A model generated the notes under the pieces. The model was not told where the DNA came from. It searched no databases and was given only the letters and a program-made list of their open reading frames with translations. From the IMG/VR virus record IMGVR_UViG_3300044630_003511, positions 1 to 64,000 of that record: 64,000 bases of DNA; one strand, written 5' to 3'. A program made the position numbers and the translations under genes. Of the stretch, positions 2,551 through 20,353 are shown in pieces. The DNA is from a virus. Position 1 is the first letter of the stretch. The number at the start of each line of letters is the position of its first letter.

Positions 2551-4191
2551 TTAAATAGAAGCTAAATCTTTAACAAAAATACGACCGTAGTACTCAGGAC
2601 GAACCATTTTCTTAGCGTATCTTGTCATTACACCTCTACGAGGAGTAAAGTTTGTTGGGTCATACACCAAAGGAGTCATAATTAATGGAACGTATGGTGC
2701 GTAAACAGCTCCAGTTTCCAAGAAGTTTGAACCTCTGAATCCTAACAAGATTTCGTTTGAAGTCATGTAAGGGTTTTTGTAAACAGTGTATCTATTAGCG
2801 ATAGCACCAACTTGCGTTACACCAGCTGCGAAAGATGCAGAATCCTTATCAGCGTTCACTGTAAATGCAGGAATCGATTCTAAGATAGTACATACATCAG
2901 GAGAAGCAACAACGAAGTTAGCTCCACCTCTTAATGTCAATTGGTGAATTTTGTTAGATACTTTGTTTAATTTAGTACCTAAAGTTTGGAACCAAGTATT
3001 CTTTTGGTAAGCCATTCCAGTTGCTGCTCCAGACCATACGCCTGATGCTGCATTGTATTCTTCACCAATAGTTGCTGACCAATACTCAGTAGTTAAAGCG
3101 TTTGATTTTAACATATCTAAGATTTCTAAGTCAATCTCTAAAGAGATATAATCAGATAACATAGAAGTTAATTCCGCTTCAGCGTCAATTGAGTGGTAAG
3201 CGTTCAAATCTTGCGCCAATTCAGGAGTCCATACTGCTTTCAACTTACGAGTCTTAGCAACGATAGCCTCTGATTTCAATTCTAAGTCAACCTCAGGAAT
3301 ATCGATATCAGTTCCGATTGTTCCTTCAGTATCTGCTCTTTTACCAGAGTTTTTACCATCTTCAAAATCACCTCTAGAGTAATCATTTGGTACAACTGAG
3401 TAAGTTAATACTACAGTTTGTGCAGCAGTTTTAGCAGTTTGTAAACCAGCAGATGCTGATACGAACATTACTAAGTTAGCTCCAGATACTTTGTGGAATT
3501 GATTTAAGTTAGTAAGTGAACCACTTGCTACGTTAAATGAACGTACACCATCTAAATCAGCTGTTGTTGGAGCTGTGAAAGTTGCTTTATGCACTTGTCC
3601 AGCTGCTACAGAAGCAGAAAGTTCAGATGTAAATCCTACATCAGCCCAAGATGCTGAAGTATAAGTGATTGCAGAGTGAGCGAAAGATGCAGTTACATCA
3701 TTTACTGTGTATCCGAATCTACCTTCACCATATAAACCATTTTCAGCTACTGCAGTAGTACCGAAACCAGCACCAGCAGCAGAATCTTGTCCGTTACCAC
3801 CAAAAAGTGATTTTCCAGAGAAAGTTGGGTTACCACCTTGAGCAGTACCATATTTGAAATCCAAATAGAATACAAGTCCAGAAGGTAAGTTCATAGGTTG
3901 TACACTAACGAATTCTTTAGAAGCAATCTCACCGAAGATTCTTCTTACTAAAGGTAAAGCTACACCGCTCCACTCTTCAGAGTTTGCACCAACACCAGTT
4001 TGTGTTGCTTCATCAAGCAATTGTTTTGCTTGGTTTTCCAAAAGTACAGCCATTGCACTTTGGTCTTTTGTCTTTAAGCCTTCAAGAAGTCCAGTTTTTT
4101 CCCATTTTGATTTAAGTTGACGAGTTTCGTTCAACATAACCGATTGTGGGTTCTTTCCTTCCATTAACTTAGATAAATCGAAATTTGCCAT
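2551..4191 (-). CDS. Major capsid protein, T4 gp23-like
   Basis: A 546-residue protein that forms the hexamers of the head. Conserved gp23 features seen are an N-terminal region with RRIFGEIASKEFVSVQPM followed by PSGLVFYLDFKYG, and a later block LKAVWTPELAQDLNAYHSID with a glutamate-rich helix after it. T4 gp23 is about 520 residues and its N-terminal propeptide is cut by the prohead protease. A matching site, LLE followed by G, sits about residue 36-38 (TGLLEGLK). It follows the scaffold gene as in T4 (22-23). No late motif lies directly upstream, so it is probably read from the scaffold leader. Confidence 0.95.
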   Translation of the reverse strand: MANFDLSKLMEGKNPQSVMLNETRQLKSKWEKTGLLEGLKTKDQSAMAVLLENQAKQLLDEATQTGVGANSEEWSGVALPLVRRIFGEIASKEFVSVQPMNLPSGLVFYLDFKYGTAQGGNPTFSGKSLFGGNGQDSAAGAGFGTTAVAENGLYGEGRFGYTVNDVTASFAHSAITYTSASWADVGFTSELSASVAAGQVHKATFTAPTTADLDGVRSFNVASGSLTNLNQFHKVSGANLVMFVSASAGLQTAKTAAQTVVLTYSVVPNDYSRGDFEDGKNSGKRADTEGTIGTDIDIPEVDLELKSEAIVAKTRKLKAVWTPELAQDLNAYHSIDAEAELTSMLSDYISLEIDLEILDMLKSNALTTEYWSATIGEEYNAASGVWSGAATGMAYQKNTWFQTLGTKLNKVSNKIHQLTLRGGANFVVASPDVCTILESIPAFTVNADKDSASFAAGVTQVGAIANRYTVYKNPYMTSNEILLGFRGSNFLETGAVYAPYVPLIMTPLVYDPTNFTPRRGVMTRYAKKMVRPEYYGRIFVKDLASI

Positions 4192-4229: not shown

Positions 4230-5252
4230 TTATTTAATGTTTGCAAGTTCTTTGAATCTTGCAGCCATTAGATTTGTGTTCTCAGAAATGATTTCTTTCT
4301 TAGGTGCAGTTGAACGAGTTGGCTTAGATGCTACGCTTTCAGCGATTGCTCTTTTAGCTTTTCTTTCAGTACCTGTAAAGTTCATTGATTCTGATAACGT
4401 TGCGAAAACTAATTTTACTTCTCTAACAGAAGTTGTTCTGTCAAGATTTTCTACAACTTTACCTTTTTGCTCGTTAGTTAAATTATAACCTCTAAACAAT
4501 TTGTTAGCGTAAAGTAATTTTGCGTTCAATAAGTTTACTTCGTTGATTGTAGATTGTAATTTTTTGATTACTGAATAAGCTTCTTCTAATTCTGCTTCTA
4601 ATTCTGCAGAGTTATCAACAACTTCTTCTTCACCTTCAGTTACTTCCTCATCATCCCCGTAACCCATTTCTCTAAGGATTTCCTCTAAGTCGATTTCATC
4701 TTCTTCTTCAGATACAGGAGCTTCTTCTTCAGAACCCATTTCCATTTCTTCCTCTTCAGCTACAGGAGCTTCTTCGGGAGCAATTTCCATTTCTTCTTCT
4801 TCAGTTACTTCCTCTTCTTCAGAGTCCATACCCATTTCAAGTTCTCTGATGATTTCTTCTAAATCTAACTCATCTTCACCCATCTCATCTTCTTCAGACA
4901 TTGATGCGTCATCAGCGTTAGTCGGGTCATCATACCCTTCAGCTTCTTCCATTGCTTCTTCAGAGTCCATTTCTGTTTCCTCTTCTTCAACAACATCAGT
5001 AGCTTCTTCTTCATTGCTTACCATAGCAGTTTGTTCTTCGTCATCACCCATGTCTAAATCCATTGAGTCCATCTCTTCTTCCATAGTTTCTTCCTCTTCA
5101 CCTTCCATTTCAGCTTGTAGCTTTCTTGATAGGATAGATTGTAAACGTGGAGTAAAAGCTTCCTCTAATGCGATTTTAGCGTTAGCGATAGCGGTTTCCC
5201 TTACAGCCTTGGCATCAGCAATTGCTTCTTTTAACAATTTTGAATTTGCCAT
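4230..5252 (-). CDS. Prohead core scaffold, gp22-like
   Basis: A 340-residue, extremely acidic protein. Residues about 50-220 are almost only E, D, S and M, including two copies of a DLEEI(I/L)RE block. The first 45 residues form a basic/alanine-rich helix. The C-terminal 120 residues hold the conserved part (LLNAKLLYANKLFRGYNL and a VKLVFATLSES segment) found in gp22-type scaffolds of T4-like phages. It would form the assembly core inside the prohead and be degraded by the gp21-type protease. The acidic tract makes long serine-rich frames on the other strand that are not genes. Confidence 0.85.
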   Translation of the reverse strand: MANSKLLKEAIADAKAVRETAIANAKIALEEAFTPRLQSILSRKLQAEMEGEEEETMEEEMDSMDLDMGDDEEQTAMVSNEEEATDVVEEEETEMDSEEAMEEAEGYDDPTNADDASMSEEDEMGEDELDLEEIIRELEMGMDSEEEEVTEEEEMEIAPEEAPVAEEEEMEMGSEEEAPVSEEEDEIDLEEILREMGYGDDEEVTEGEEEVVDNSAELEAELEEAYSVIKKLQSTINEVNLLNAKLLYANKLFRGYNLTNEQKGKVVENLDRTTSVREVKLVFATLSESMNFTGTERKAKRAIAESVASKPTRSTAPKKEIISENTNLMAARFKELANIK

Positions 5253-5802: not shown

Positions 5803-6939
5803 TTATTTTTTTAATTTTAAACTTCTTTGTGCGTTGGTTAAACCATCAATGATTGATTGCAATCCCCCCTTAACACCATCAGTATCTTTATCTTTAACTC
5901 TCTTATCTAAAATCTTTGTATTCATTTTTAAAAAGTTAATGATTGCATTTTCAACTGCGCTCCATCTAATTTCTTCTTCATTTACCGATTCATTCTTTTG
6001 GTGAAGTTTGATTGTAAGTCTTTGATTTGGATTACCATCGTGTCCAACCAATGCACTAACAAAATTCATTTTACCTTGCAAGTTTGCTGATTTAATACTT
6101 TTGAAAAGTTTTACACCATCCAAATTATGTTTATCAATAAAGGCTTGAACCGCATCACCTCTTGTAGCAGTTAATGCTGCAATTCCCATTGCTTCTTTAC
6201 CAGCACCTTCAGTTACTACTGATTCTCTTTTATCAAGCTCAAAGTATATTCTACTTTTAACTTTTTGGAATGTATCAGCTGCTAACTTAGCGTTACCAGT
6301 AAATCCCATCTCCAATCCAATTTCTTTTGAACGAATACCTTTTTTAGCCAATGCCATTATTTGAGCTGCTACTGGTTTAGAAACTACTTGAGTTGGTGTA
6401 TCAACGTGAATGATATGTTTGAATGCCTCAGTTACTACTGATTCTAAATATACATATTTACCATCAAATGATGCTGCTATTTTTTTTGAATTTAAAAAAT
6501 CTGCTGCTTTTTTAGCATTGTTTGGTGAATCATAAACCATTGCACCATCATCTTCTACCATTTTAAATCCCTTATGAATACTACCCATATGTTTAGCAAC
6601 TTCAGGAGATAACGATTCTTTAATAATATTCTCCATTAATCCAATTGCAATATCTTTAACTTCTCTTTCTGCACCAGCTGCATATTTCTTATTTACAATT
6701 GCAATAGTGTTTCCAGATACTTTAATTCTATACATCGGTATCATTGAAGTTGAGAAATCATACTTTACACCAATTTTCTTTAATTCAGAACCAACGTTCA
6801 TAAATGATGATGCGTTTTTAACTGCTGCTTCAATTTTATCTAAATCAGCATCGTATCTTCCTTCGTTTACTGATTCTATTTCTGAAAGAACTGATTCTTT
6901 CATAGTTTCTCTTACTATTTTTCTTAATTGCTCTTTCAT
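5803..6939 (-). CDS. Modular prohead core/cargo protein with protease-site linkers
   Basis: A 378-residue protein made of short blocks joined by near-identical linkers: SVNE-G at residue 26, SVVTE-A at 171, SVVTE-G at 244 and SVNE-E at 321, plus VLSE-I at 20. Each fits the (I/L/V)-x-E cut rule of the T4 prohead protease. Cutting would remove a basic N-terminal targeting helix and release four small proteins of about 57-145 residues. Block 27-171 is mixed alpha/beta; the last block is a lysine-rich helical bundle. It lies four genes downstream of the portal gene and two after the protease gene. I infer an internal head protein; the individual blocks are not recognised. Confidence 0.6.
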   Translation of the reverse strand: MKEQLRKIVRETMKESVLSEIESVNEGRYDADLDKIEAAVKNASSFMNVGSELKKIGVKYDFSTSMIPMYRIKVSGNTIAIVNKKYAAGAEREVKDIAIGLMENIIKESLSPEVAKHMGSIHKGFKMVEDDGAMVYDSPNNAKKAADFLNSKKIAASFDGKYVYLESVVTEAFKHIIHVDTPTQVVSKPVAAQIMALAKKGIRSKEIGLEMGFTGNAKLAADTFQKVKSRIYFELDKRESVVTEGAGKEAMGIAALTATRGDAVQAFIDKHNLDGVKLFKSIKSANLQGKMNFVSALVGHDGNPNQRLTIKLHQKNESVNEEEIRWSAVENAIINFLKMNTKILDKRVKDKDTDGVKGGLQSIIDGLTNAQRSLKLKK

Positions 6940-6941
6940 AA

Positions 6942-7490
6942 TTATTTTTTTCCTAAACGTTCTTTTACAATTTCACCATCTAAATCAGAAATTTCATAGT
7001 ATCTATTTAATATGTTACCCATATCTTCATAAAGTGAATGTAATCTCTCATCTAACTGTCTTGCTTCAGTTGCAACCTTTTCAAATGCTTTATCCATTTT
7101 ATCTAACTCACTCATATTTCTTTTGATGGTTACTTTATCAAACCAATCATCAGCTTCAGAAAGTGTTAGGGTTTTAGCAGCTTCTACGATTCCACCCAAA
7201 GTTTCAGCTACCTCAACGATATCTGAATTTCTTTTCATTTGCTCTTGGAATGTTTTATAAGTTGAAATAATTTCTAAGAAGTGTTTTTTAACTTCGTTTG
7301 ATAATGGTCTATTATCTTCTAATGATTCAGCTATACTGAATTTACCATTAACTATTTTTACTTCATTGATATTGGTTTTACGAATATCATTATATCCCTT
7401 AGATACGTTATTACCACCCTTTTGTTCTACTTTTAAAGTAAAGGTGTTATTTGTTACATAATCGTATATGTCAAAGTTTTTCTTGCTCAT
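6942..7490 (-). CDS. Conserved head-cluster protein, helical
   Basis: A 182-residue protein. The second half is a conserved helical region (LTLSEADDWFDKVTIKRNM, then LYEDMGNILNRYYEI) that I know only from uncharacterised genes next to the prohead protease in environmental T4-like phages. LTLSE-A and SIAE-S fit the prohead-protease cut rule, so it may be a processed core protein. It touches the protease gene (1-base overlap at 7490). The exact function is unknown. Confidence 0.55.
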   Translation of the reverse strand: MSKKNFDIYDYVTNNTFTLKVEQKGGNNVSKGYNDIRKTNINEVKIVNGKFSIAESLEDNRPLSNEVKKHFLEIISTYKTFQEQMKRNSDIVEVAETLGGIVEAAKTLTLSEADDWFDKVTIKRNMSELDKMDKAFEKVATEARQLDERLHSLYEDMGNILNRYYEISDLDGEIVKERLGKK

Positions 7491-8077
7491 TATATTAATC
7501 CTGTTATGATTTCTCTCATTAAATCTTGTGCTTTACAAAATTCACCACAAACATCAGTACCAATAGATTTAACTACCGATTCGTTCATAGGTGTCATAAA
7601 TGCACCATGCGTAGATGGATTGGAAACAAAATCCCAACCGATTAATTCAAAGTCCTCTTGAACTTCTACTTTATTTCCTTCTAATTGTCTAGTAGAACCC
7701 ATACCTCTTGATGAGATACCTAATAGGATTCCAGCTCTTAACAATTCTTTTAATATGTTTCCAGATGGTGTTGGTAAGATTTCAACTGTACCACATAAAT
7801 CATTACCTTCCCAATGAATTTCTCTCACATTATGAGATACGTTCTTCAAGTTGATTACAGACGAATCAGGGTGGTCTAATTCACCTAATGCTCGTCTTTC
7901 TTTGATAAGTGTTTCATATCTCTTTGCTTCTCTTTGTAAGATTGGCATTGGATATACTCTACCATTTTGGTTTTCCGCCCCAGCTCTTTGTAGGATTCCT
8001 TTAACGATAGTTCTACCAGAGGCATCTTCGTTAACTAATCCCTTAAACAAATTCGTTTCTATTATTAAGCTTTTCAT
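7490..8077 (-). CDS. Prohead maturation protease, gp21-like
   Basis: A 195-residue serine protease close in size to T4 gp21 (212). It cuts scaffold, core and capsid proteins after the (I/L/V)-x-E motif during head maturation. A GELDHP segment carries the catalytic histidine (H69) and ISSRGMGS holds the catalytic serine (S122 or S123); both are conserved in this herpesvirus-protease-like fold. VNE-D at residue 17 could be a self-processing site. Its place among portal, core, scaffold and capsid genes matches T4 order 20-21-22-23. Confidence 0.93.
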   Translation of the reverse strand: MKSLIIETNLFKGLVNEDASGRTIVKGILQRAGAENQNGRVYPMPILQREAKRYETLIKERRALGELDHPDSSVINLKNVSHNVREIHWEGNDLCGTVEILPTPSGNILKELLRAGILLGISSRGMGSTRQLEGNKVEVQEDFELIGWDFVSNPSTHGAFMTPMNESVVKSIGTDVCGEFCKAQDLMREIITGLI

Positions 8078-8102: not shown

Positions 8103-9206
8103 TTAATTTATTGATTTGAATTTAGGATAGCCCCTACCCTCAACAAATTTAAAACCATTTTGTTTTTTCATACTACCTAAAAACAAATCTTTGTAGTATA
8201 TTTCAACATACGCATATCCAGTTACTTTACAAATATGTTCAGCTGCTTTAATTGCGCTTTCCAATGTAGTAGCCAAAAAGTTTGTTTCTCTTTCGGTATT
8301 TCTTTGATTGGAATCCGTATAGAAATCAAACATAAATCTTTTTTTAACGTCTGCTGCTTCATTAAATGTATCAGTTTCAGAATTTACATTCTCTTCCAAT
8401 CCAAATGGCTTTAACCAATTAATCCAATTTTTTGTAATCCAATTAGTTCTATTTTGTGGAGATACTGTCCAATACTTTTTATATATAGATTTAAATACCG
8501 GAATTAAACTACTATTTTTAAAACCTGCAATACCAGACCATCCTTGTCCACCTCTAACTGCTTGTAAAAAATCACTATCATCCTCATAATATTCCATTGA
8601 GTTGGATAATATATCTACCAATGCTAACATTGATTTATCATTACCAATTGCTTCGTTAACTGATTCTTTGATTACAACGATTCCGTTTTCATCACCTCTT
8701 TTAGCAGTTTTAATACCACCATCAATATCACCTAAACGATGTCTTACTTTTTTTGAACCCTTTGTATTACCATTTTTATCAGATGGAACGAATGTTGCTG
8801 AAATACTATCCATATCTACAACTTTATAATACTTCCCACCATCTATTCCCTTTAATCGGGTGAATCCTTGTCCTAATATTACAGAACCGATTTTTAAATC
8901 AGTTGGATATGATGCTTCATCTACTTTTTTACCAGCTCTTAAATCTGCTAAATCATCACTACCGATATCACCATCTTTATCAACATCTAATTTCTTTTGA
9001 CCACCAACTAATTCTTCATTCTTTTCACCTCTACCATCCCATGTGGCATCGATTTTATCAAAAAATGCTTTCTTTTCCTCATCACTCATAGATGGGATAG
9101 ATTTTCCAGCTTTTTCTAATGCGGCTTTGAAAAATGATTGATACTCCGATTCCTCATTAACGATTGTACGAAGTGTTTCTTTTAGTTTTGCTCTAGTAAT
9201 ATTCAT
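8103..9206 (-). CDS. Modular prohead core/cargo protein with EF-hand-like loop
   Basis: A 367-residue protein divided by candidate protease sites: VNE-E at residue 18, VDE-A at 97, SVNE-A at 185 and FNE-A at 283. The first block (19-97) has the segment YQSFFKAALEKAGKSIPSM and an acidic loop DVDKDGDIGSDDL that resembles a calcium-binding EF-hand or dockerin loop. The second block (98-185) is beta-rich, the third helical and rich in tryptophan, and the fourth (284-367) mixed alpha/beta. The N-terminal 18 residues are basic and helical, like a capsid-targeting peptide. An internal head protein is inferred. Confidence 0.6.
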   Translation of the reverse strand: MNITRAKLKETLRTIVNEESEYQSFFKAALEKAGKSIPSMSDEEKKAFFDKIDATWDGRGEKNEELVGGQKKLDVDKDGDIGSDDLADLRAGKKVDEASYPTDLKIGSVILGQGFTRLKGIDGGKYYKVVDMDSISATFVPSDKNGNTKGSKKVRHRLGDIDGGIKTAKRGDENGIVVIKESVNEAIGNDKSMLALVDILSNSMEYYEDDSDFLQAVRGGQGWSGIAGFKNSSLIPVFKSIYKKYWTVSPQNRTNWITKNWINWLKPFGLEENVNSETDTFNEAADVKKRFMFDFYTDSNQRNTERETNFLATTLESAIKAAEHICKVTGYAYVEIYYKDLFLGSMKKQNGFKFVEGRGYPKFKSIN

Positions 9207-9221
9207 AGTATAGGTTTCCTA

Positions 9222-9671
9222 TTATAGTTTGCTAATTGATGTAGCAATATTGTTTAATCTCTCTCTTATTCTGAATAAGTTTGATTTAGTTCTTTTCCAA
9301 TATTGGTCAGAGTTTAAATCACCTTCATTTTTAATCTTACCATACCAACCAAGGAATGTTTCGATTTCAGAAAGTTGTCTATTAACATTAGAAATTCCTC
9401 TACCAATTTTTTGTTTTGGAGAGGATTCATCTTTTCTTAATTCATGCCAACGATTTTCATCAACTTTTTTATATCCAGTTGATTGATTTATTCTTTTTGT
9501 AATTGCATCATCTGGTTCAGCTTCTTCATCAGTACCATCCGTTGCTTTGAATGCATTGGGAGTATTGTATCCAGCTACATCACCAGTTGTTGTTGCTTCA
9601 CCTAACTCTAACTCCTCTTGCTGAATCTCTTCTAAAAGTTCATCAATTAGTTCTCTTAGTTTACTTGTCAT
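9222..9671 (-). CDS. Conserved core protein with targeting-peptide-like N-terminus
   Basis: A 149-residue protein. The first 25 residues form an acidic amphipathic helix ending in LELGE-A, a match to the prohead-protease cut rule. The next segment, ATTTGDVAGYNTPNAF, recurs in uncharacterised head-cluster proteins of T4-like phages. The remainder is basic and helical. It overlaps the 9661..10539 gene by 11 bases. Probably a small internal or core head protein. Confidence 0.55.
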   Translation of the reverse strand: MTSKLRELIDELLEEIQQEELELGEATTTGDVAGYNTPNAFKATDGTDEEAEPDDAITKRINQSTGYKKVDENRWHELRKDESSPKQKIGRGISNVNRQLSEIETFLGWYGKIKNEGDLNSDQYWKRTKSNLFRIRERLNNIATSISKL

Positions 9672-10606: not shown

Positions 10607-12376
10607 TTATTTACTAATTTTTTCCTCGTCTAACAAATTTGAATCATCTAAAAAGTCAACTTTTTCTTTTATAATTTGTTTTTTTGATGATATTCCGTTA
10701 ATGTATTCTTTTGCAATATTTGCATTAACTCTAACCGCTGAACTTTCTCTTTTCAGAGCTTTTTGGTTTTCTTTAGCTCCTAATGGGTCTCTACCATAAG
10801 GATGTTTATCTTTACCATAAGTATTACCCTCTCTTGGTCTACCACCTTCATCCTTTAATTCCGTTTTAAGTTTTTCCAAACTTTCTTCGATATCAGTTGG
10901 TTGTTGTGGCATTGCCGGGTCATTTCCTTCGTTTTCAATAGCGTTATATCTGAATCTATCTTTGAGGTCATTTATCATTCCAGCTTTTTGTTGGTCTACC
11001 TCATCTTTACTCATATTGAATATATTTTCATATGCCCAATCTTTAGAAATCATATTTAATGCATTGATATCAGAAACTAATCTTACTTTCTCACTCCAAA
11101 GGTTTACTTTCTCTTGCTCATAGATTGTAGATGGATTTACCAATGATAATTCAAAATCAACCATATCAGCATCTTCGATACCTTGAGATGCTAAATGTAC
11201 AATTGCCAATTTAGTAAGTTCGGATACCAATGTTCTTTGGATTCTCTCAATCGTTCTTGCAAATCTTACATCTTCTGCAGCAAGTGTTGCTTTACCATTT
11301 ACATTCTCATCATACCCCAAATATGCTTTTGGAATTTTAAGAGCTGCAAACAATTTGTTTTTTAAGTAATCAATATCTTCAATAGCTGTGTATTGTAATC
11401 CACCTAATGAATCAATTTGAGTACCACTATCACCACCCCTAACAGGTAAGAAGAAATCTTCAGTTAAGTTTTGGATATTATATTTTAAGTTATAATCACC
11501 ACTATTCTTATCAACAAATGGAACTTTCTTCATTTTGTTGATAATCTTTTGCATGTAGTTATCCACTTCGTTTGGTGGAATATTACCAATATCAATTTTG
11601 AAAACTCTCTTATCCGGTGCTCTCATAATTCTATGAATTAACATAGCATCTTCCATAAGAGAAACTTGTTTCCAAATTCTTCTACCATTTTCAATCATTG
11701 CCTTACCATAAGGTAAGAAGTTGGTATCTGATAATAATCTAAAGTGTACTACTTCATAGTTCTCATATTCACCTTTTCCAATAGGGTCATGATTAACTTT
11801 GAACTTAACATAGTTTGGATTATTTGGGTCAGTATTTTCCAATCTTTCAGTTTCATAAACTGGAAGTGGTTGTACATTAATAATACCATTACCTGGTTGT
11901 ATTTCCACCGAAAGGAAAAAATCACCATACTTAACCATATTACGAGTCCATGCCCATAGGTTAAATTCAATATTTAAAATATCATAGAAAAGATTTTCTA
12001 ATAATGCTTTTACTTTTTCGTTTTGAGTTTTGATTTGAATTACATCTCCAAATTCATTCTTTAATGTAGATTCATCTGAGTATATATCTAATGCCGATGA
12101 TATAATCGGGTCATTATCCATAGCATCATAATCTCTAAATAATTCTCTACGAACTTGATGGTATGCCATTGACTGTGCAGCCATTTGGTCACCAGCAAAT
12201 CCTCTTTGTAATTTAGTGTACCTATCTCTAAGGTTCAATAAATTAGTACTTCCTTGCTGTCTGTCATCAACATCAACTACTTTTCTCTTCCCATCCTTGT
12301 CAATTTTGACTACGGCTTGAGTAGAAAAGAGTTTTGTTAATCTTTGAAAAAACGTACTTTGTTGTTGTTCTGCCAT
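10607..12376 (-). CDS. Portal protein, gp20-like
   Basis: Forms the dodecameric DNA-entry vertex of the head and docks the terminase. The frame is open from 12463, but the ATG at 12376 (MAEQQQSTFFQRL) is preferred: it clears the upstream gene (stop at 12408) and gives 589 residues, near the T4 size (524). Conserved gp20 features seen are the DNDPIISSALDIYSDEST region and the MRAPDKRVFKIDIGN block with a helical stem. Also present are KLFAALKIPKAYLGYDE and a following ERIQRTLVSEL helix. A lysine/glycine-rich tail (about 510-545) is probably flexible. Confidence 0.93.
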   Translation of the reverse strand: MAEQQQSTFFQRLTKLFSTQAVVKIDKDGKRKVVDVDDRQQGSTNLLNLRDRYTKLQRGFAGDQMAAQSMAYHQVRRELFRDYDAMDNDPIISSALDIYSDESTLKNEFGDVIQIKTQNEKVKALLENLFYDILNIEFNLWAWTRNMVKYGDFFLSVEIQPGNGIINVQPLPVYETERLENTDPNNPNYVKFKVNHDPIGKGEYENYEVVHFRLLSDTNFLPYGKAMIENGRRIWKQVSLMEDAMLIHRIMRAPDKRVFKIDIGNIPPNEVDNYMQKIINKMKKVPFVDKNSGDYNLKYNIQNLTEDFFLPVRGGDSGTQIDSLGGLQYTAIEDIDYLKNKLFAALKIPKAYLGYDENVNGKATLAAEDVRFARTIERIQRTLVSELTKLAIVHLASQGIEDADMVDFELSLVNPSTIYEQEKVNLWSEKVRLVSDINALNMISKDWAYENIFNMSKDEVDQQKAGMINDLKDRFRYNAIENEGNDPAMPQQPTDIEESLEKLKTELKDEGGRPREGNTYGKDKHPYGRDPLGAKENQKALKRESSAVRVNANIAKEYINGISSKKQIIKEKVDFLDDSNLLDEEKISK

Positions 12377-12407
12377 TTTTGTTTTTGTTTTTATAACCTT
12401 TATTAAT

Positions 12408-12815
12408 TTACCAAGCTTTACAACTCCAATACCTTGCTCCTGTTTTTGGACCAGGTGTATCACAATTGTGTCTTGCTCTAAATGATGCTCTTCGTTCTGG
12501 GTCTGATTTTTTAATTCTCATAGTTTCTTCACCTGCTGATTTTGCTGATGTTCCGCCATGCCCAAAATTTACTTTTACAACATTCCCTTTTGGATTGTTA
12601 ACATATACTTTAAACTTCTTAACATCACCTCTCATCGGTTTATTGAGTTTTACCTCTCTTCCCTGATATTCGGCTTCGTTAACTTCCCCCTTTATGGTTT
12701 TTAAGAATTCTATGAATTCTTTTAAATCATCGTAGTTTTCAACATAATATTCAGTAACATCTTCTTCGAAAATGCCTCTGATTTCATTGTAAAGTTCTAA
12801 AGTATAATTTTCCAT
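12408..12815 (-). CDS. Conserved phage protein between terminase and portal
   Basis: A 135-residue protein. The N-terminal half is acidic. The C-terminal half holds GDVKKFKVYV and the ending MRIKKSDPERRASFRARHNC...YWSCK, which recurs in uncharacterised proteins of environmental T4-like phages. The two cysteines and basic residues could bind zinc or nucleic acid. It takes the place where T4 has tail sheath and tube genes. A late motif lies 28 bases upstream. Function unknown. Confidence 0.6.
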   Translation of the reverse strand: MENYTLELYNEIRGIFEEDVTEYYVENYDDLKEFIEFLKTIKGEVNEAEYQGREVKLNKPMRGDVKKFKVYVNNPKGNVVKVNFGHGGTSAKSAGEETMRIKKSDPERRASFRARHNCDTPGPKTGARYWSCKAW

Positions 12816-12876: not shown

Positions 12877-14463
12877 TTATAACCATTTACTTAAATCTTC
12901 AATACTACCATCCCCAACGTTCATTTGCCAAGGATTACTATCCATATCGTTACCACCATAAACACCACTATAAGTATATGATGATATACTGTTAATAGCT
13001 TGTTTTGTTAAATCAATACCCTCTTGTCTTAATCTAAGTGATGTATCTCTAACCCAAAGTGATATGGCTAATGCCATCGTAAGGTCATCATTATAACCAC
13101 GCATTGCCTCAGCTCTACCATTGTTCCAAATGAATGTAAATAACTCATCTATGGTTCTTACTGAACGGATTATGATTGATTTTTCTCTTACATACTCCTC
13201 CAACTTTGAAATAATCAAAGGTCGGGTTCTTGATGTGGTTGAGAATCCAGCTACCATACTTCTATCCTCCGAACGATATTTGTTTGATAATTGATTATCC
13301 ACATCCACATATTTTAAATCTCGAGATGTATAATACAAATTAGTATATCCCCTATCCAATACTTGTTGAATAGCTGCCCAACCAATATTTGCGTTTTCAA
13401 TTACCAATAGTGCGTTGTTATATTCGGTTGCTAATGATACTAAGAAATTTCCAAAATCCTTTGTATCCAACTTACCTCTATATTCTGCTACTTGCGCAGA
13501 TGCTTCAACATCAATAACGTGTGCGGTAGAGTAATCCGAAGAATCTCCCCTCGAAACGTCAGCTGATACTATGTAAGTTTTATTATAGTTAGGATATTCC
13601 CATCTCCAAAGGTTTCCATCAAATCCACCTTTTTCTACTGGGTCTTGCACAAATGTTTCTTTATAAAATTGTAGGAGTTGTGGTTCGATTACACTATCTC
13701 CAGAAGATACGAAATCACAATCACACTCTTGAGCTGCTCCCTTTGTTCCTAATAGAACCTCTTGTTCATCTCGCCAAGCTTGCTCTCTTTCAGGATGTAC
13801 ACTCCAATGGATTCTAATATTATTAAATGAGTTTGTTCCATCTTCAGAACCTACCCAAGTTTTGTGGAAAAAGTTTCCAACACCATTTGGTGTAGAAAGG
13901 ATAATTGCGTTACCCCCAGTTGATAATGTAGATTGTGCAGATACCCATATATCTTCAATCTTATCGATAAATGCCGCCTCATCAAATACTAATAAAGATA
14001 GTGCTTCAGAACGACCAGCATCACTAGCAGCAGATGTTGCTTTGATTTGAGAGCCGTTTGCATATCTAAGTGATAATTTGTTATCCTCCACCGTTGTTAG
14101 TTTTAACCAACTTGGTAGATATTGATTCATAACCCTTACCTTAGTTACTAAGTTTTTAGCAACCTCTTGCTTTGTTGCAATAACCAATACGTTAAAATCA
14201 TCATTAAATAGCATTTTCCAAAGTGAGAAACCAGCAGTCAATGTTGAGATACCAGTTTGTCTTGATTTTAGAATAATATTATAACGATGGTCTTTAAACT
14301 GAGTTAGTGTATCTTCTTGAAACGGAAAAAGGTGAAAGGGTATTTTACCTTTCACCGGATGTTGAATCATACAATATTTTCGCATGAAGTATATCGGGTC
14401 TTTTGCACACTTTTGATATTCTTCAGCAATAATTTGTTTTAATGATTTCTTTACTTCAGCCAT
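12877..14463 (-). CDS. Terminase large subunit, gp17-like
   Basis: A 528-residue packaging motor with ATPase and headful nuclease. The Walker A-like motif SRQTGIS (67-73) and Walker B LLVFDEAAF (D161, E162) form the ATPase half. The RNase-H-like nuclease half has VSADVSRGDSSDYS (D302), ALLVIENAN (E356) and YNDDLTMA (D459/D460). Length is shorter than T4 gp17 (610), mainly at the N-terminus. It follows a spanin-like pair by three bases. All expected catalytic acidic residues are present. Confidence 0.95.
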   Translation of the reverse strand: MAEVKKSLKQIIAEEYQKCAKDPIYFMRKYCMIQHPVKGKIPFHLFPFQEDTLTQFKDHRYNIILKSRQTGISTLTAGFSLWKMLFNDDFNVLVIATKQEVAKNLVTKVRVMNQYLPSWLKLTTVEDNKLSLRYANGSQIKATSAASDAGRSEALSLLVFDEAAFIDKIEDIWVSAQSTLSTGGNAIILSTPNGVGNFFHKTWVGSEDGTNSFNNIRIHWSVHPEREQAWRDEQEVLLGTKGAAQECDCDFVSSGDSVIEPQLLQFYKETFVQDPVEKGGFDGNLWRWEYPNYNKTYIVSADVSRGDSSDYSTAHVIDVEASAQVAEYRGKLDTKDFGNFLVSLATEYNNALLVIENANIGWAAIQQVLDRGYTNLYYTSRDLKYVDVDNQLSNKYRSEDRSMVAGFSTTSRTRPLIISKLEEYVREKSIIIRSVRTIDELFTFIWNNGRAEAMRGYNDDLTMALAISLWVRDTSLRLRQEGIDLTKQAINSISSYTYSGVYGGNDMDSNPWQMNVGDGSIEDLSKWL

Positions 14464-15880: not shown

Positions 15881-18800
15881 CTATTCGTAAAATAATCCAA
15901 GAATTTGATTTAATGGTGCAAATGTACCTGTTAGTTTCATTGTATTTCCATTGTACACAAATACGATACCTTCGTTTGGAACTATTTTATCTTTTCCACC
16001 AATAGCGTTTAATCTTTGTAATTCCATTTTAAGTTTTGCTATCTTCTTTTCATCACCACCAGTCTTAACATCTGATATAGTTTTATCTAATCTATCCTTC
16101 ATAGCTCTAACCGCAGAATCAGGGTTTGCTGTAAGTACTGAACTCATAAATGAAAGTACTTCAGAGCCAACACCCAAAAATATATCCTCAAAAGGTCTAA
16201 TATTATCCTTTGCTATCTTAGCGTGGTCATTCTTATCAATACCAGTTGCCCAACTTAATACTTTAGCATCGGTAATGTTTTTATTGTCTAAACGGAATGA
16301 TTTATCATAGAATGCCCATCTCTTAACCAATCCCATTAGAGTTCTATTATCAATCGGAGATGGTGATTTCTTAGTTACAAAATCAGTCCACCATGCTTGA
16401 TGATAATCAGCAATACCATCCGTATCGGATAGTTTAAACTTAGATTGTAGTTTTGTAATCTGTCCACTATATTTTCCTTTTAATGAAGTTAAGTTTTTTG
16501 ATTGTGGTAACTTAACAACTGGAGGTCCTTGTATTGTATAAGCCGATTGTACGTTTTGATTTACTTGCTTAATCATACCAGCCAAAACTTTAGCTGCTTC
16601 TTGATTTTCACCAATTGCTATACCAGCTTCATTATATTCCATTGTTCCATGAAATACTAATAGTGCTTGTCCATAAGGAATTACATTTACCGAAGTTGGA
16701 TATATTACCTCCAAATTCATAAAACATGCACCATTCTTAAAAACTTTTTCTCTTTGTTTTTCTGAAAGTGATTTTATTGCTTTTGATAAATCACTCATAG
16801 CAAAGTTGTATGCTTTTTCTAACTCACCTCTTCCGGCAAACTTAGTAGCTACTCCATTTATATCCAATGCCTTCTCACCTCTATTAGCTAGATGTCCTTT
16901 GTTTCTAGCAGCAACTAATCTTCCATTCACCCAACTGATTGCTAATGCTTGTCCATCAGTTTTTTCTCTTGTCAATTCCAACTTACCTTCTAATGCACGA
17001 TTCACAATATCTTTAAGTTGTCCAAATGTTAAGTTAATTTCAGTATCAAATGGATGATTCATATGTCCATACGCACCACCTTCAGTTAATAACCCCTCAG
17101 TTATGTTTGGGTTATTATCAGTTCCACATTTGTGACACATATAGGTATCACTTCCACCTTCAGAAATTTTCCAACTCCAACCACAATTATCACAAATTAC
17201 TTTACCATTTTCTACTCTTTCACTAATCCCACCACCCAATGCGTATGGTTCGTTATATTGTAATTTCTCAGCGTTAAATTTCTTTCTTAATCTTTTAAGA
17301 ACTTCTTTATGTTTATCAATCCATGCTTGGTCTGGGTAACCCATTCCAATTCCTTCAAATGCTGATTTGGTTTTTACTTTATACCAACCACCACCCGGTG
17401 TTCTGAATATTCTTGCAGGTATTTCTAATATTCCATTTGATGGTAATTTAGAATGATACTTTGAATCAATATGAACAACCTTTACAATGAATACTTTTTT
17501 CTTATTATCAGCTCCAATCAATTCAACTTCTAATGGAACTGCTACTCCACCTATTTTAAGTTTACCACCAAAGATATTACCTTTAGTGTATGCTTCTTCT
17601 ACTGATTTTTTAACCATTTCATATCCTTTATCTTCGGTATCCTTTGTATTTGTTTGATGACCAGGTTCTGTTTTTTTACTATCATCAAAATCAATTGTAT
17701 CCAATTCTGCACCATATCCCATATCAGGTGTATATGTTCCCGATTTGTGATGTTGTAAAAAATTATGGTCTATTGTACCATCCGATTTATGATTTTTTGA
17801 ATTAATATTTTCATTTTTACTTATTTCAATTGCTCTTAATTGCTTAAGTGCTTTCTCTTTAGTATCATGTGTTCCTAATCTATCACCACCATCCTTTGGA
17901 TATACCACCCACTTACCATCAATATGTTTGATTGTTTCAACAGTCAATTTCATTGATTCTTTGCTTCTAAAATCTCTAGTTCCACCTTTATTATCTTTAA
18001 ATCCGAATGATTTATAGAATTGGATTAATCTTCCCTTAGAACCCCCAAAATCAGATGATGGAGTTAAGAATACATCTTTTTTGGTTTTCTTTGCATAAGT
18101 AATAATATCATTCATTACTTTTGTACCAATACCCTCACTTCTTTTTTCTTTTGGAACAACTATTCTGTGAATTTCTAAGTATTCTGGATATTCATATACA
18201 TCCAATTCCACACCATGTTTTTTCCCCAAATGAGAGTCTAACGTTTCAGCAATTACTGATTCAAATTTATATTCAGGTGTTGTTGTTTTGAATTCACCTT
18301 TTCTCATTATAGTTTTTGCAATAGCTTTATTAGCTTGAAGCATAAATGGTATATTGATATTAGTTCTATTATCCTTTGCTACAACTTGGTTGTATTGAGT
18401 TAAGAATTCAACAAATTTCTTTTTATTTCTACCTAATCTTTTAAAGAACCCAGTTAGTTCTGCTGCTGATATTTCCTTACCATTTCTCGTATCATTTAAT
18501 CTATCGAAAAAATGTTTATCAGTAAGAACGATATCAATTGGATTTAATTGTCTATCAGCGTATTTATCAATTTGTTGTAAATCAGCCATTGGGATTTCGT
18601 TAATTACCGATTCGTTTTTACCAGTATCTGCTTTTTTAGCAGCAACACCAATTTCTTCTGCAAATTTATTTGACATTGGTATCACATCCTTTATATCGGC
18701 ATCAATAACAATAACTTTCATATTAGCAGGTTTCCCATCTCTAATTGCGTTTGTTGTTACAGCTGCCCAACGATGATGACCATCCACTACATATCCATCT

Positions 18801-20353
18801 CTACTTACATAGATTGGAGCAGTAATCTTTGGATGATTCGGGTCATTCTCTAATGCCTTTGCCATACCAGCTACCTTTGCACCAACTAATTCAGATTGAG
18901 TTGCTTTTAGAGAATCCGATGGTAATTCAGTTTGGATAGTTTTAATACCCTTTCTTTTCAATAGTTCTCTAAACATTGGTTCCGTATCAACTTCACCATT
19001 TATATCTTTTTCCATACTTGCCGCAGGTGAACCTTCGGTTGGTTTGCCTTTAAATTGTGGCATTTCCTCACGAGGAATTCCAGCATTACCAGCACAATAT
19101 AAGTTTGTTCCAGCTACAGTTATTTTACATAAATTGTAATTAGGAGCTGCTTCACCATTTTCTTTTGCCTGATTTGTTAGTTGAACCAACTTATCAATCT
19201 GCATTGAAATTTCTCTTTGTTGCTTATTTGAAATTTTAGGAATATCCGATTCTGAACTAAATGTATCTGAATCTGCTTTTGGTAATACCTTAGTTACATT
19301 ATCTAATGCAACATTTGGTATTTCAGTTTTGGGTTTTTCTTTTTGCTTAACATCAGGTGCATGTTTAAACATATCCGAACCGGCTACTTTAGTTCCTTTA
19401 GATGGTTCCGATTTTGTATCACTAGCTCCATCTATTTTAACATACTTACCACCATCATTCTTTGAAAAAGATGGAGAAGATTCATCATCCTCTTTACCTT
19501 TTTGTTTATACACACCATGTCCAATATGAGTGTATTTGGAATCATCATTTTCATCTTCAAAGATTACTTGATATCCTTCCTTTATCATTCTAAAAGTTGC
19601 TACCTTTTTACCATTGATAGTTGGCATTCCATGTTCATCTTTTCCAATAGTTTTTACAATAACTTTTTTATTTTTAAATCTACCCATTAAAATGGTATCT
19701 CCGATTTCAACATCTAATGTAATACCTTCATCTAAATTAATTGATTCTGGTAATTTGGAAAGTTTATCAACAACCATATCAAAAATTGATTGATTGAATT
19801 TACCATAAGCTTTCTTTACAAAGAAATCTTTTTTATCCTCAGTACTACCTTTTTTTAAACCAATCCTAACATCAGTACCACTAATTGCATTTGGTTGTGC
19901 TGGTGATATAAAAACATACCCCCTATCAGCATATCCTTCCAATTCAATACTATCTTTGTATTTTTCAAAATACTTCCCACCCAAACGACTTGAATCTTTC
20001 TCACCAACCACAGTTATAAATGCAGTAGTTTCTTTATTGAATTTGCTTAGGATTTCAGTTGGAGCATAGGGATTTTTGACCTGAGCTATTTTGTTTGATG
20101 GGATACCAAACATAGTGGTCATTACCTTTACTTTCTCCTTAAAATTGAATGGGGATTTTTGATTGTCTGTTTTATCAGAGGTTCCGATATAAACATTATT
20201 TTTTCCAAACTTTTTTACTAATGTTTGGTAAGTAGCGAAGTGCCCTTTATGAAAAGGTTGAAAGCGACCAGAGTAAACAACAACTAAGTCCTTTACACTG
20301 CTCGCTTCTCCTAATAATATACTCTCTACTAAAAACTTTGATAAATCACTCAT
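15881..20353 (-). CDS. Multi-enzyme head polyprotein: adenylyltransferase, ParB-like, acetyltransferase, zinc ribbon, nucleic-acid ligase
   Basis: A 1490-residue protein. Residues 1-16 look like a capsid-targeting peptide ending LLGE-A. Residues 20-200 are an NMN-adenylyl/cytidylyltransferase domain (GRFQPFHKGH, H35 and H38; ISGTDVR). About 370-575 is ParB/sulfiredoxin-like (DGHHRW at 524-529). Residues 587-700 are an unknown helical domain. Residues 704-800 are a GNAT acetyltransferase (RSEGIGTKVM). Residues 920-1040 are beta-rich and unknown; a CxxC zinc ribbon spans 1054-1076. Residues 1092-1490 are a nucleotidyltransferase ligase (K1131-T-D-G; FMNLE; EGIVF 1461-1465). Linkers NLDE-G (209), SVINE-I (586), SVIAE-T (703), SVEE-A (920), NITE-G (1086) and LLTE-G (1091) fit gp21-type cleavage. 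Packaging and injection as separate enzymes is inferred. Confidence 0.75.
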   Translation of the reverse strand: MSDLSKFLVESILLGEASSVKDLVVVYSGRFQPFHKGHFATYQTLVKKFGKNNVYIGTSDKTDNQKSPFNFKEKVKVMTTMFGIPSNKIAQVKNPYAPTEILSKFNKETTAFITVVGEKDSSRLGGKYFEKYKDSIELEGYADRGYVFISPAQPNAISGTDVRIGLKKGSTEDKKDFFVKKAYGKFNQSIFDMVVDKLSKLPESINLDEGITLDVEIGDTILMGRFKNKKVIVKTIGKDEHGMPTINGKKVATFRMIKEGYQVIFEDENDDSKYTHIGHGVYKQKGKEDDESSPSFSKNDGGKYVKIDGASDTKSEPSKGTKVAGSDMFKHAPDVKQKEKPKTEIPNVALDNVTKVLPKADSDTFSSESDIPKISNKQQREISMQIDKLVQLTNQAKENGEAAPNYNLCKITVAGTNLYCAGNAGIPREEMPQFKGKPTEGSPAASMEKDINGEVDTEPMFRELLKRKGIKTIQTELPSDSLKATQSELVGAKVAGMAKALENDPNHPKITAPIYVSRDGYVVDGHHRWAAVTTNAIRDGKPANMKVIVIDADIKDVIPMSNKFAEEIGVAAKKADTGKNESVINEIPMADLQQIDKYADRQLNPIDIVLTDKHFFDRLNDTRNGKEISAAELTGFFKRLGRNKKKFVEFLTQYNQVVAKDNRTNINIPFMLQANKAIAKTIMRKGEFKTTTPEYKFESVIAETLDSHLGKKHGVELDVYEYPEYLEIHRIVVPKEKRSEGIGTKVMNDIITYAKKTKKDVFLTPSSDFGGSKGRLIQFYKSFGFKDNKGGTRDFRSKESMKLTVETIKHIDGKWVVYPKDGGDRLGTHDTKEKALKQLRAIEISKNENINSKNHKSDGTIDHNFLQHHKSGTYTPDMGYGAELDTIDFDDSKKTEPGHQTNTKDTEDKGYEMVKKSVEEAYTKGNIFGGKLKIGGVAVPLEVELIGADNKKKVFIVKVVHIDSKYHSKLPSNGILEIPARIFRTPGGGWYKVKTKSAFEGIGMGYPDQAWIDKHKEVLKRLRKKFNAEKLQYNEPYALGGGISERVENGKVICDNCGWSWKISEGGSDTYMCHKCGTDNNPNITEGLLTEGGAYGHMNHPFDTEINLTFGQLKDIVNRALEGKLELTREKTDGQALAISWVNGRLVAARNKGHLANRGEKALDINGVATKFAGRGELEKAYNFAMSDLSKAIKSLSEKQREKVFKNGACFMNLEVIYPTSVNVIPYGQALLVFHGTMEYNEAGIAIGENQEAAKVLAGMIKQVNQNVQSAYTIQGPPVVKLPQSKNLTSLKGKYSGQITKLQSKFKLSDTDGIADYHQAWWTDFVTKKSPSPIDNRTLMGLVKRWAFYDKSFRLDNKNITDAKVLSWATGIDKNDHAKIAKDNIRPFEDIFLGVGSEVLSFMSSVLTANPDSAVRAMKDRLDKTISDVKTGGDEKKIAKLKMELQRLNAIGGKDKIVPNEGIVFVYNGNTMKLTGTFAPLNQILGLFYE

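Follow-up and report, generated by a model that had tools for sequence, protein, structure and literature searches.

The locus described here raises the question whether a late phage protein built from several enzyme-like domains may be packaged as one chain and divided into separate proteins in the head. The window, i.e. the whole stretch of DNA analysed, comprises 64,000 nucleotides (positions 1 to 64,000 of the 86.7-kb IMG/VR virus record IMGVR_UViG_3300044630_003511). It contains an open reading frame (ORF) at 15881..20353 that starts with ATG and encodes 1490 amino acids (aa), which a preliminary description had read as a packaged, protease-cut set of enzymes. The ORF was borne out, on the minus strand (no strand had been named before), and an identical polyprotein (100% identity) is also encoded in a 270,865-bp record. 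Judging from sequence, we regard it as probable that the protein is a packaged precursor which is cut between its domains in trans by the prohead protease. The best reading of its combined identity is that of a "polyvalent" protein wired into the internal-protein route of phage T4. Computation supports this through the limits of the modules, the placement and conservation of the sites, their residue preference, the co-occurrence of the protease and a ligase-like fold; from these we infer actual cleavage, packaging and ejection.

According to our proposal, a 16-residue capsid-targeting peptide of the T4 type would direct the complete chain to the core of the prohead. There, this peptide would be removed and the linkers cut in trans after (I/L/V)xE by the S77 prohead protease, the enzyme that would mature the capsid as well. 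The predicted pieces are a nucleotidyltransferase (residues 17-209), a ParB-like piece (210-586), module C (587-703), a GNAT piece (704-920), a beta/zinc-ribbon piece (921-1091) and an RNA-ligase-like enzyme (1092-1490), each of which would be present in one copy per precursor, be kept in the head and be ejected with the DNA. As targeting and release would be generic, the middle modules could be exchanged between two constant enzymes. The predicted cutter, a gp21-like protease that had been placed at 7490..8077, is indeed encoded there on the minus strand (Peptidase_S77, Pfam E 2e-25) and has an N-terminal motif of its own, LIIE-T (hyphens within sites mark the predicted cut). Related records encode an S77 prohead protease in 15 of 15 cases, as do two of two huge phages (17/17 together); the ligase domain was likewise found in 15 of the 15 records, some of which represent near-identical phages.

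All cleavage sites proposed in the preliminary description exist, namely LLGE16-A, NLDE209-G, VINE586-I, VIAE703-T, SVEE920-A, NITE1086-G and LLTE1091-G, and further linker sites not listed before end at E10, E203, E259, E266 and E1045. The chain contains 18 (I/L/V)xE motifs where 18.8 are expected from its composition, so their number is not above chance. Their placement is biased: 12 fall into 368 linker residues and six into 1122 domain residues (odds ratio 6.3, p 1.9e-4, a value that is indicative since the domain limits were set after seeing family matches). For (I/L/V)xD the distribution is reversed, with one motif in linkers and 15 in domains.

A scan of a viral collection yielded 346 stretches encoding members of this polyprotein family (duplicates kept), which is thus not rare. 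The best 80 gave 74 loci, with 45 ORFs having both ends, 35 of them distinct; ORFs missing an end at contig edges were left out. The 35 distinct full-length homologues, one of them from Microcystis phage Mel-JY01, span 639-1999 aa. Both ends are constant, with a HIGH-type nucleotidyltransferase at the N-terminus and an RNA-ligase-like domain at the C-terminus, and the middle is a mosaic. Other members contain, for instance, CCA-adding/poly(A) polymerase heads (4/35, best E 4.8e-31), DUF5661 (15/35) and GNAT (2/35). The small module at residues 206-261 precedes module C in the window and follows it in locus L014, where the ORF is cut by the contig edge; several relatives have module C directly next to the ligase, with TTESLIME-GG as the joint.

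Both constant junctions keep the motif: (I/L/V)xE occurs in the N-terminal peptide before the first domain in 35/35 homologues and directly before the ligase in 35/35. Across the 74 loci, 71 of 71 ligase starts found by pattern are preceded by it, identical copies included. Eight different triplets occur before the ligase, which means conservation at P3 and P1 and drift at P2. Motif-free linkers in homologues, named earlier as evidence to the contrary, were looked for and not seen at these two junctions, whereas other breakpoints are less uniform (see below).

For the mosaic middle we compared 30 non-redundant homologues, after removal of near-duplicates (>93% identity across 80%) and of clusters with single support. 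At 158 of 285 alignment-breakpoint clusters an (I/L/V)xE lies within 10 aa (63.9 expected, z 13.4), and 101 clusters have one with a favourable P1' residue (28.6 expected). The controls were (I/L/V)xD (z 0.6), (I/L/V)xK (z 0.5), (I/L/V)E (z 0.9), (F/A/M/Y/W)xE (z -1.7) and (I/L/V)x(Q/N) (z -2.9). After similar contexts had been collapsed, (I/L/V)xE(A/G/S/T/I) was found at 38/117 breakpoints and at 30/266 random positions (p 1.3e-6), and the D, K, Q/N and wrong-P3 controls were flat and not significant. The motif of the T4 prohead protease is given as L/I-x-E (PMC9026906). The flat D control is of note, since processing of the T4 IPIII peptide is inhibited by Asp at its cleavage position (PMC9026906). 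These tests bear on the idea that the chain is a packaged polyvalent protein that is left uncut, or trimmed at its N-terminus, and ejected whole, its linkers being just flexible. Such a course has a precedent in the virion RNA polymerase of phage N4, which is packaged unprocessed (PMC5512222), and it would agree with a motif number that follows composition. We nevertheless consider it quite improbable, since neither a residue-specific enrichment at breakpoints nor an invariant site before the ligase with a drifting P2 is expected of neutral linkers.

Entry into the prohead is suggested by the first 16 residues, MSDLSKFLVESILLGE (20306..20353, minus strand), a putative capsid-targeting sequence (CTS) with a predicted cut after E10 and/or E16. 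The N-termini of T4 IPII and IPIII read MKTYQEFIAEA. In head gene clusters of ten relatives, 31/73 proteins, the protease included, have CTS-like starts, as compared with 18/390 windows starting at internal Met residues; several of these starts read MIKLxxLLNE. Modules that occur on their own point in the same direction. In the distant huge phage LR756500 a standalone ligase starts MKFLKSYEEFLNE-NLILE-GGSYGHLNHPF, to be compared with the T4 IPIII start; a protein with GRFQPFTLGH is encoded next to it, and the S77 match, a more distant one, lies about 40 kb away. CTS-like starts were recognised by eye in three of four distinct standalone module ORFs near polyprotein genes, and the module-C protein of Flavobacterium phage immuto starts MKKSQLRQIIKE-A. 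In the 270-kb relative, a stricter CTS pattern matched 17/289 proteins (7.2 expected), a number reached in 1 of 1000 random draws; some of these matches, e.g. the terminase, are probably due to chance. Replacing the E of this pattern by D, Q, N or K gave a raw count of 33 matching proteins.

Several observations weigh against packaging with cutting between domains. The sites at E118, E721, E977, E1065, E1198 and E1249 of the window chain lie within domains and would need shielding, and the LR756508 polyprotein has many intra-domain (I/L/V)xE motifs, so the linker-site rule may not hold there. The nucleotidyltransferase core is barely depleted in the motif (39 seen, 44.4 expected). When S(V/I/L)xxE was counted per gene, the neighbour at 5803-6939 ranked first and the polyprotein was outside the top 22 genes. 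No (I/L/V)xE is found within 10 aa of 127/285 breakpoints, and breakpoints show an excess of the shifted motif (I/L/V)xxE as well (119 seen, 82.7 expected, z 4.7), which might reflect pairs of adjacent hydrophobic residues that are frequent in real sites; this excess is lost once contexts are collapsed (p 0.11). The p values are optimistic, since the homologues are related by descent and linker motifs that they have in common may attract the ends of BLAST alignments. As to targeting, one of the four standalone module ORFs has no CTS-like start, and when the 270-kb relative was scanned with a loose CTS pattern, no enrichment was seen (32/289 proteins, 30.5 expected). The module-C proteins phiN3 gp356 and one of Melnitz-3 also lack a CTS-like (I/L/V)xE start, and virion proteomics was found for none of the relatives. 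The latter two points would equally suit a late intracellular multidomain enzyme that is not packaged and resembles internal proteins at its N-terminus by chance. The N-terminal site kept in all 35 homologues, the concentration of CTS-like starts in the head cluster and the T4-IP-like start of the LR756500 ligase make this extremely improbable.

Which activities would a packaged and processed chain deliver? The first module (residues 17-209; 19727..20305, minus strand) is a HIGH-type nucleotidyltransferase, NMN-adenylyltransferase-like, with CTP_transf_like (PF01467, E 4.4e-8) matching residues 26-163 above the Pfam cut-off, in agreement with the adenylyltransferase-type domain described before, and it was detected in 35/35 homologues. 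The preliminary description had further suggested a role in NAD metabolism or in end repair of nucleic acids. Function in NAD+ replenishment against NAD-depleting defences, instead of RNA repair, draws on the resemblance of this constant module to NMN adenylyltransferases (2qjt, E 9.1e-6, residues 24-79; PRK01153, E 1.7e-8). This likeness is partial, as the NMN-adenylyltransferase models cover approximately residues 21-88 and all remain far below their cut-offs; among curated models the generic TIGR00125 alone passes (28.5 bits, cut-off 27.7). In addition, every phage with NadM is reported to carry NadV too (PMC9503650), whereas no NadV or NAPRTase match was obtained in seven records (0/7), which are possibly fragments. 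The constant partner being RNA-ligase-like and the altered HxGH stretch of the Mel-JY01 copy also speak against NAD+ replenishment, which we regard as doubtful.

The C-terminal module (residues 1092-1490; 15884..17080, minus strand) was assigned to the covalent nucleotidyltransferases, as RNA-ligase-like, from motif, AF2 model and Foldseek/VIA comparisons. EKTDG, a KxDG nucleotidyl-lysine motif, is invariant in 41/41 aligned ligase modules, and the variant EKLDG occurs in Mel-JY01 and LR756500. The AF2 model (pLDDT 81.3; L076 and L077 left out of the AF2 alignments) contains a long helical stretch, and the residues of the ligase junction fall into its low-confidence tail. Foldseek ranked RNA ligases first (best E 2e-3, probability 0.91, TM about 0.2), with 0/98 matches reaching E 0.001. 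VIA-align, which re-aligns Foldseek's own match list, gave a best Z of 7.1 (middling by the tool's own scale) over 178 residues at 4.5 A, and 50 of 50 among the matches listed are nucleotidyl ligases. Because the fold matches are consistent and the KxDG motif is present, though each number is middling, these data moderately support the KTDG-type ligase proposed initially. A profile search with the ligase alignment returned no ligase among ten PDB matches at E <=1; seven of the ten were ribosomal protein eS6 (best E 2.6e-4), helical matches that we take as chance. The ligase core is depleted in (I/L/V)xE (55 seen, 124.5 expected).

Since the family combines a constant nucleotidyltransferase with an RNA-ligase-like partner, and some relatives add CCA-adding modules, we tentatively suggest that the purpose of the core pair is to mend, at an early stage, RNA cleaved by host defences, a possibility that we put somewhat below even. 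Phage repair of RNA broken by host defences is a theme reviewed in PMC9503650.

The middle modules are more heterogeneous. Residues 210-586 (18596..19726, minus strand) comprise the small module at about 206-261, followed by a block at 407-573 that matches phrog_2859 (no name attached; E 3.5e-23). The DGHHRW stretch behind the earlier assignment of a ParB-like domain is present in the chain, but profile matches are weak (phrog_2159, E 0.0017; phrog_1033, E 0.035). Block 421-536 recurs in proteins of F116-like phages, some annotated as PLxRFG, structural or internal virion proteins. Module C (residues 587-703; 18245..18595, minus strand) has a core at 589-698 that matches proteins of other phages; its AF2 model is poor (pLDDT 51.6). 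An assignment of module C as RegB-like RNase gained no clear support: from a shallow profile, hhalign gave the match to T4 RegB a probability of 0.2, and Pfam REGB_T4 gave E 0.0021 in 1/27 sequences and 0.0056 in P0002, both below the cut-off. Residues 704-920 (17594..18244, minus strand) contain a GNAT domain at about 710-801, matched as had been proposed yet below the Pfam cut-offs, and a weak DUF2188-like stretch at about 803-863. For residues 805-862 of the latter, PADLOC gave solely weak matches to PDC-S16, a candidate family (E 4.3e-4). Residues 676-802 match the giant family phrog_10691 (E 2.8e-19) and DarB-like-annotated proteins of Parlo and Skulduggery. A putative beta module and a zinc ribbon make up residues 921-1091 (17081..17593, minus strand; Pfam and sequence), which end with the double site NITE1086-GLLTE1091-GG; the zinc ribbon predicted earlier was matched at 1048-1083, albeit weakly. 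By sequence or fold, two or more disparate domains thus share one chain (nucleotidyltransferase, sub-cut-off GNAT, ligase-like).

Pfam detected no peptidase domain in the window polyprotein. As a side observation, the L034 polyprotein (1846 aa) has the zincin-like motif HELVH; an embedded peptidase may therefore exist in part of the family as well.

The ORF lies within a T4-type head block, all on the minus strand, in which terminase, portal, S77 prohead protease, a scaffold-like protein and a gp23-like capsid protein follow downstream along transcription. Mel-JY01 has the same order as the window, with a two-domain version of the polyprotein, terminase, protease and capsid; for this 639-aa version one main cut between domains is predicted, at ...NNIIAE-GGLGGHMNHPF. 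The large terminase (12877..14463) was assigned by profile matches and the gp20-like portal (10607..12463) by Pfam (E 5.6e-69). A candidate head-core protein with a CTS-like N-terminal sequence (9222..9671) and a candidate packaged protein with the CTS-like start KLKETLRTIVNE and an internal KESVNE-A (8103..9206) precede the protease. Beyond it, the ORF at 5803..6939 encodes a second candidate multi-cut head protein, with a CTS-like start and the internal linkers ESVVTE-A, ESVVTE-G and ESVNE, and that at 4230..5252 an acidic scaffold-like protein that has relatives and (I/L/V)xE sites near its start. The major capsid protein (2551..4191) belongs to the gp23 family, which was found in 5/5 relatives. 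Its propeptide probably ends ...KQLLDE-ATQTG; the form QLL(S/D)E-(A/T)T is kept in the three distinct sequences among six capsid loci compared. These head proteins with similar linkers could suggest that the polyprotein is itself a prohead core or scaffold protein whose pieces are mostly expelled after cleavage, like T4 gp22 and gp67; the core proteins of T4 are processed to several fragments each, and these mostly do not stay in the head (PMC9026906). Enzyme-like modules with conserved motifs (EKTDG 41/41, CTP_transf_like 35/35) argue against it, and an exchange of middle modules is not expected of a scaffold, so we judge this very improbable. At locus L110 (ORF starting at 3683, minus strand), a 755-aa protein adjoining the prohead protease has 14 (I/L/V)xE(A/G/S/T) sites and is a candidate multi-cut protein.

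With the polyvalent proteins of Iyer et al. 2017 (PMC5512222) the window chain shares its large size, late class, several domains of predicted disparate activities, mosaic modules and predicted injection with the DNA; it may also draw on their pool of domains, which includes DdrB-like ParB and GNAT, through its sub-cut-off GNAT and possibly ParB-like blocks. Where processing of polyvalent proteins is proposed, it is ascribed to embedded zincin or C-terminal assemblin-like peptidases (PMC5512222), whereas the window sites fit a separate S77 protease. According to that source, its 2H domains were not once encountered together with RNA ligases, whereas the constant partner in the family described here is RNA-ligase-like; T4-type ADP-ribosyltransferases (ARTs) are said there to be outside the genuine polyvalent proteins. 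T4 IPI-III and Alt share with the chain the short N-terminal peptide ending L/I-x-E, an S77 protease in the genome and the head gene cluster. They are trimmed at their ends, Alt at both (PMC9026906), whereas about six modules are predicted from the single window chain. In phiKZ and SPN3US the prohead protease likewise cuts packaged proteins after xxE, with several cuts per propeptide (PMC10052503). SPN3US differs in its motif, A-x-E, and in that cutting at 13 of 14 sites takes off N-terminal propeptides, and the part of PMC10052503 consulted does not describe splitting of one chain into several enzymes.

Blocks 421-536 and 617-801 are shared with proteins of Parlo-, Skulduggery- and F116-like phages, some of them annotated as DarB-like, PLxRFG or internal virion proteins; among the 60 of 166 matches listed, the match is confined to these blocks and the constant end modules remain unmatched. 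T4 Rnl1/Rnl2 and other ATP-dependent RNA ligases are fold neighbours of the C-terminal module (VIA Z up to 7.1) and share KxDG, but the module is too distant in sequence for profile search and has its long helical stretch. The T4 ligases are not known to be packaged. Among the papers listed from the open-licence PMC literature, titles and abstract starts revealed no T4-type polyprotein split into enzymes by a prohead protease, and in the literature searched we found no earlier description of a protein that is of the polyvalent and of the T4 internal kind at once.

If the proposed packaging and cutting take place, the prohead protease of T4-like phages would also be a polyprotein-processing enzyme. 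A simple motif and a recognisable targeting peptide would then help to read packaged and injected enzymes from sequence, and fusion in one precursor would be a natural way to have a single head deliver several proteins at a fixed ratio. Specific candidates for early anti-defence enzymes can be listed from the family. We lean towards viewing it as a DNA-phage counterpart of retroviral Gag-Pol, in which one targeting signal and a capsid-maturation protease doubling as polyprotein processor would serve an exchangeable enzyme kit. Such a kit, made up of an RNA-repair core and of variable modules against host defences, would reach the host in finished form at infection.

Further CTS-like proteins were noticed in record G001. 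A P-loop kinase (AAA_33/zeta-toxin-like) encoded at 208045-208797 (L093:13045-13797, minus strand) has the CTS-like start MISLKEIIKGILSE-G and is a candidate packaged kinase. A second cluster of CTS-like proteins lies away from the head genes at 227.7-233.3 kb (L094:13182-18822, minus strand); one member has weak HAD-phosphatase matches and the start MLTIKQENMIARSLLVE-S, and another has a second CTS-like stretch, MIKLTDLMSE-S, internally. Finally, phage immuto, which has a named host, encodes late proteins of 907 and 841 aa (L077:5668-15068). The larger, annotated as NadR-like, has a GGFKPPHLAH stretch and the zincin-like motif HEMIHH, and the smaller has the linkers ESVNE-G and ESLNE-D.

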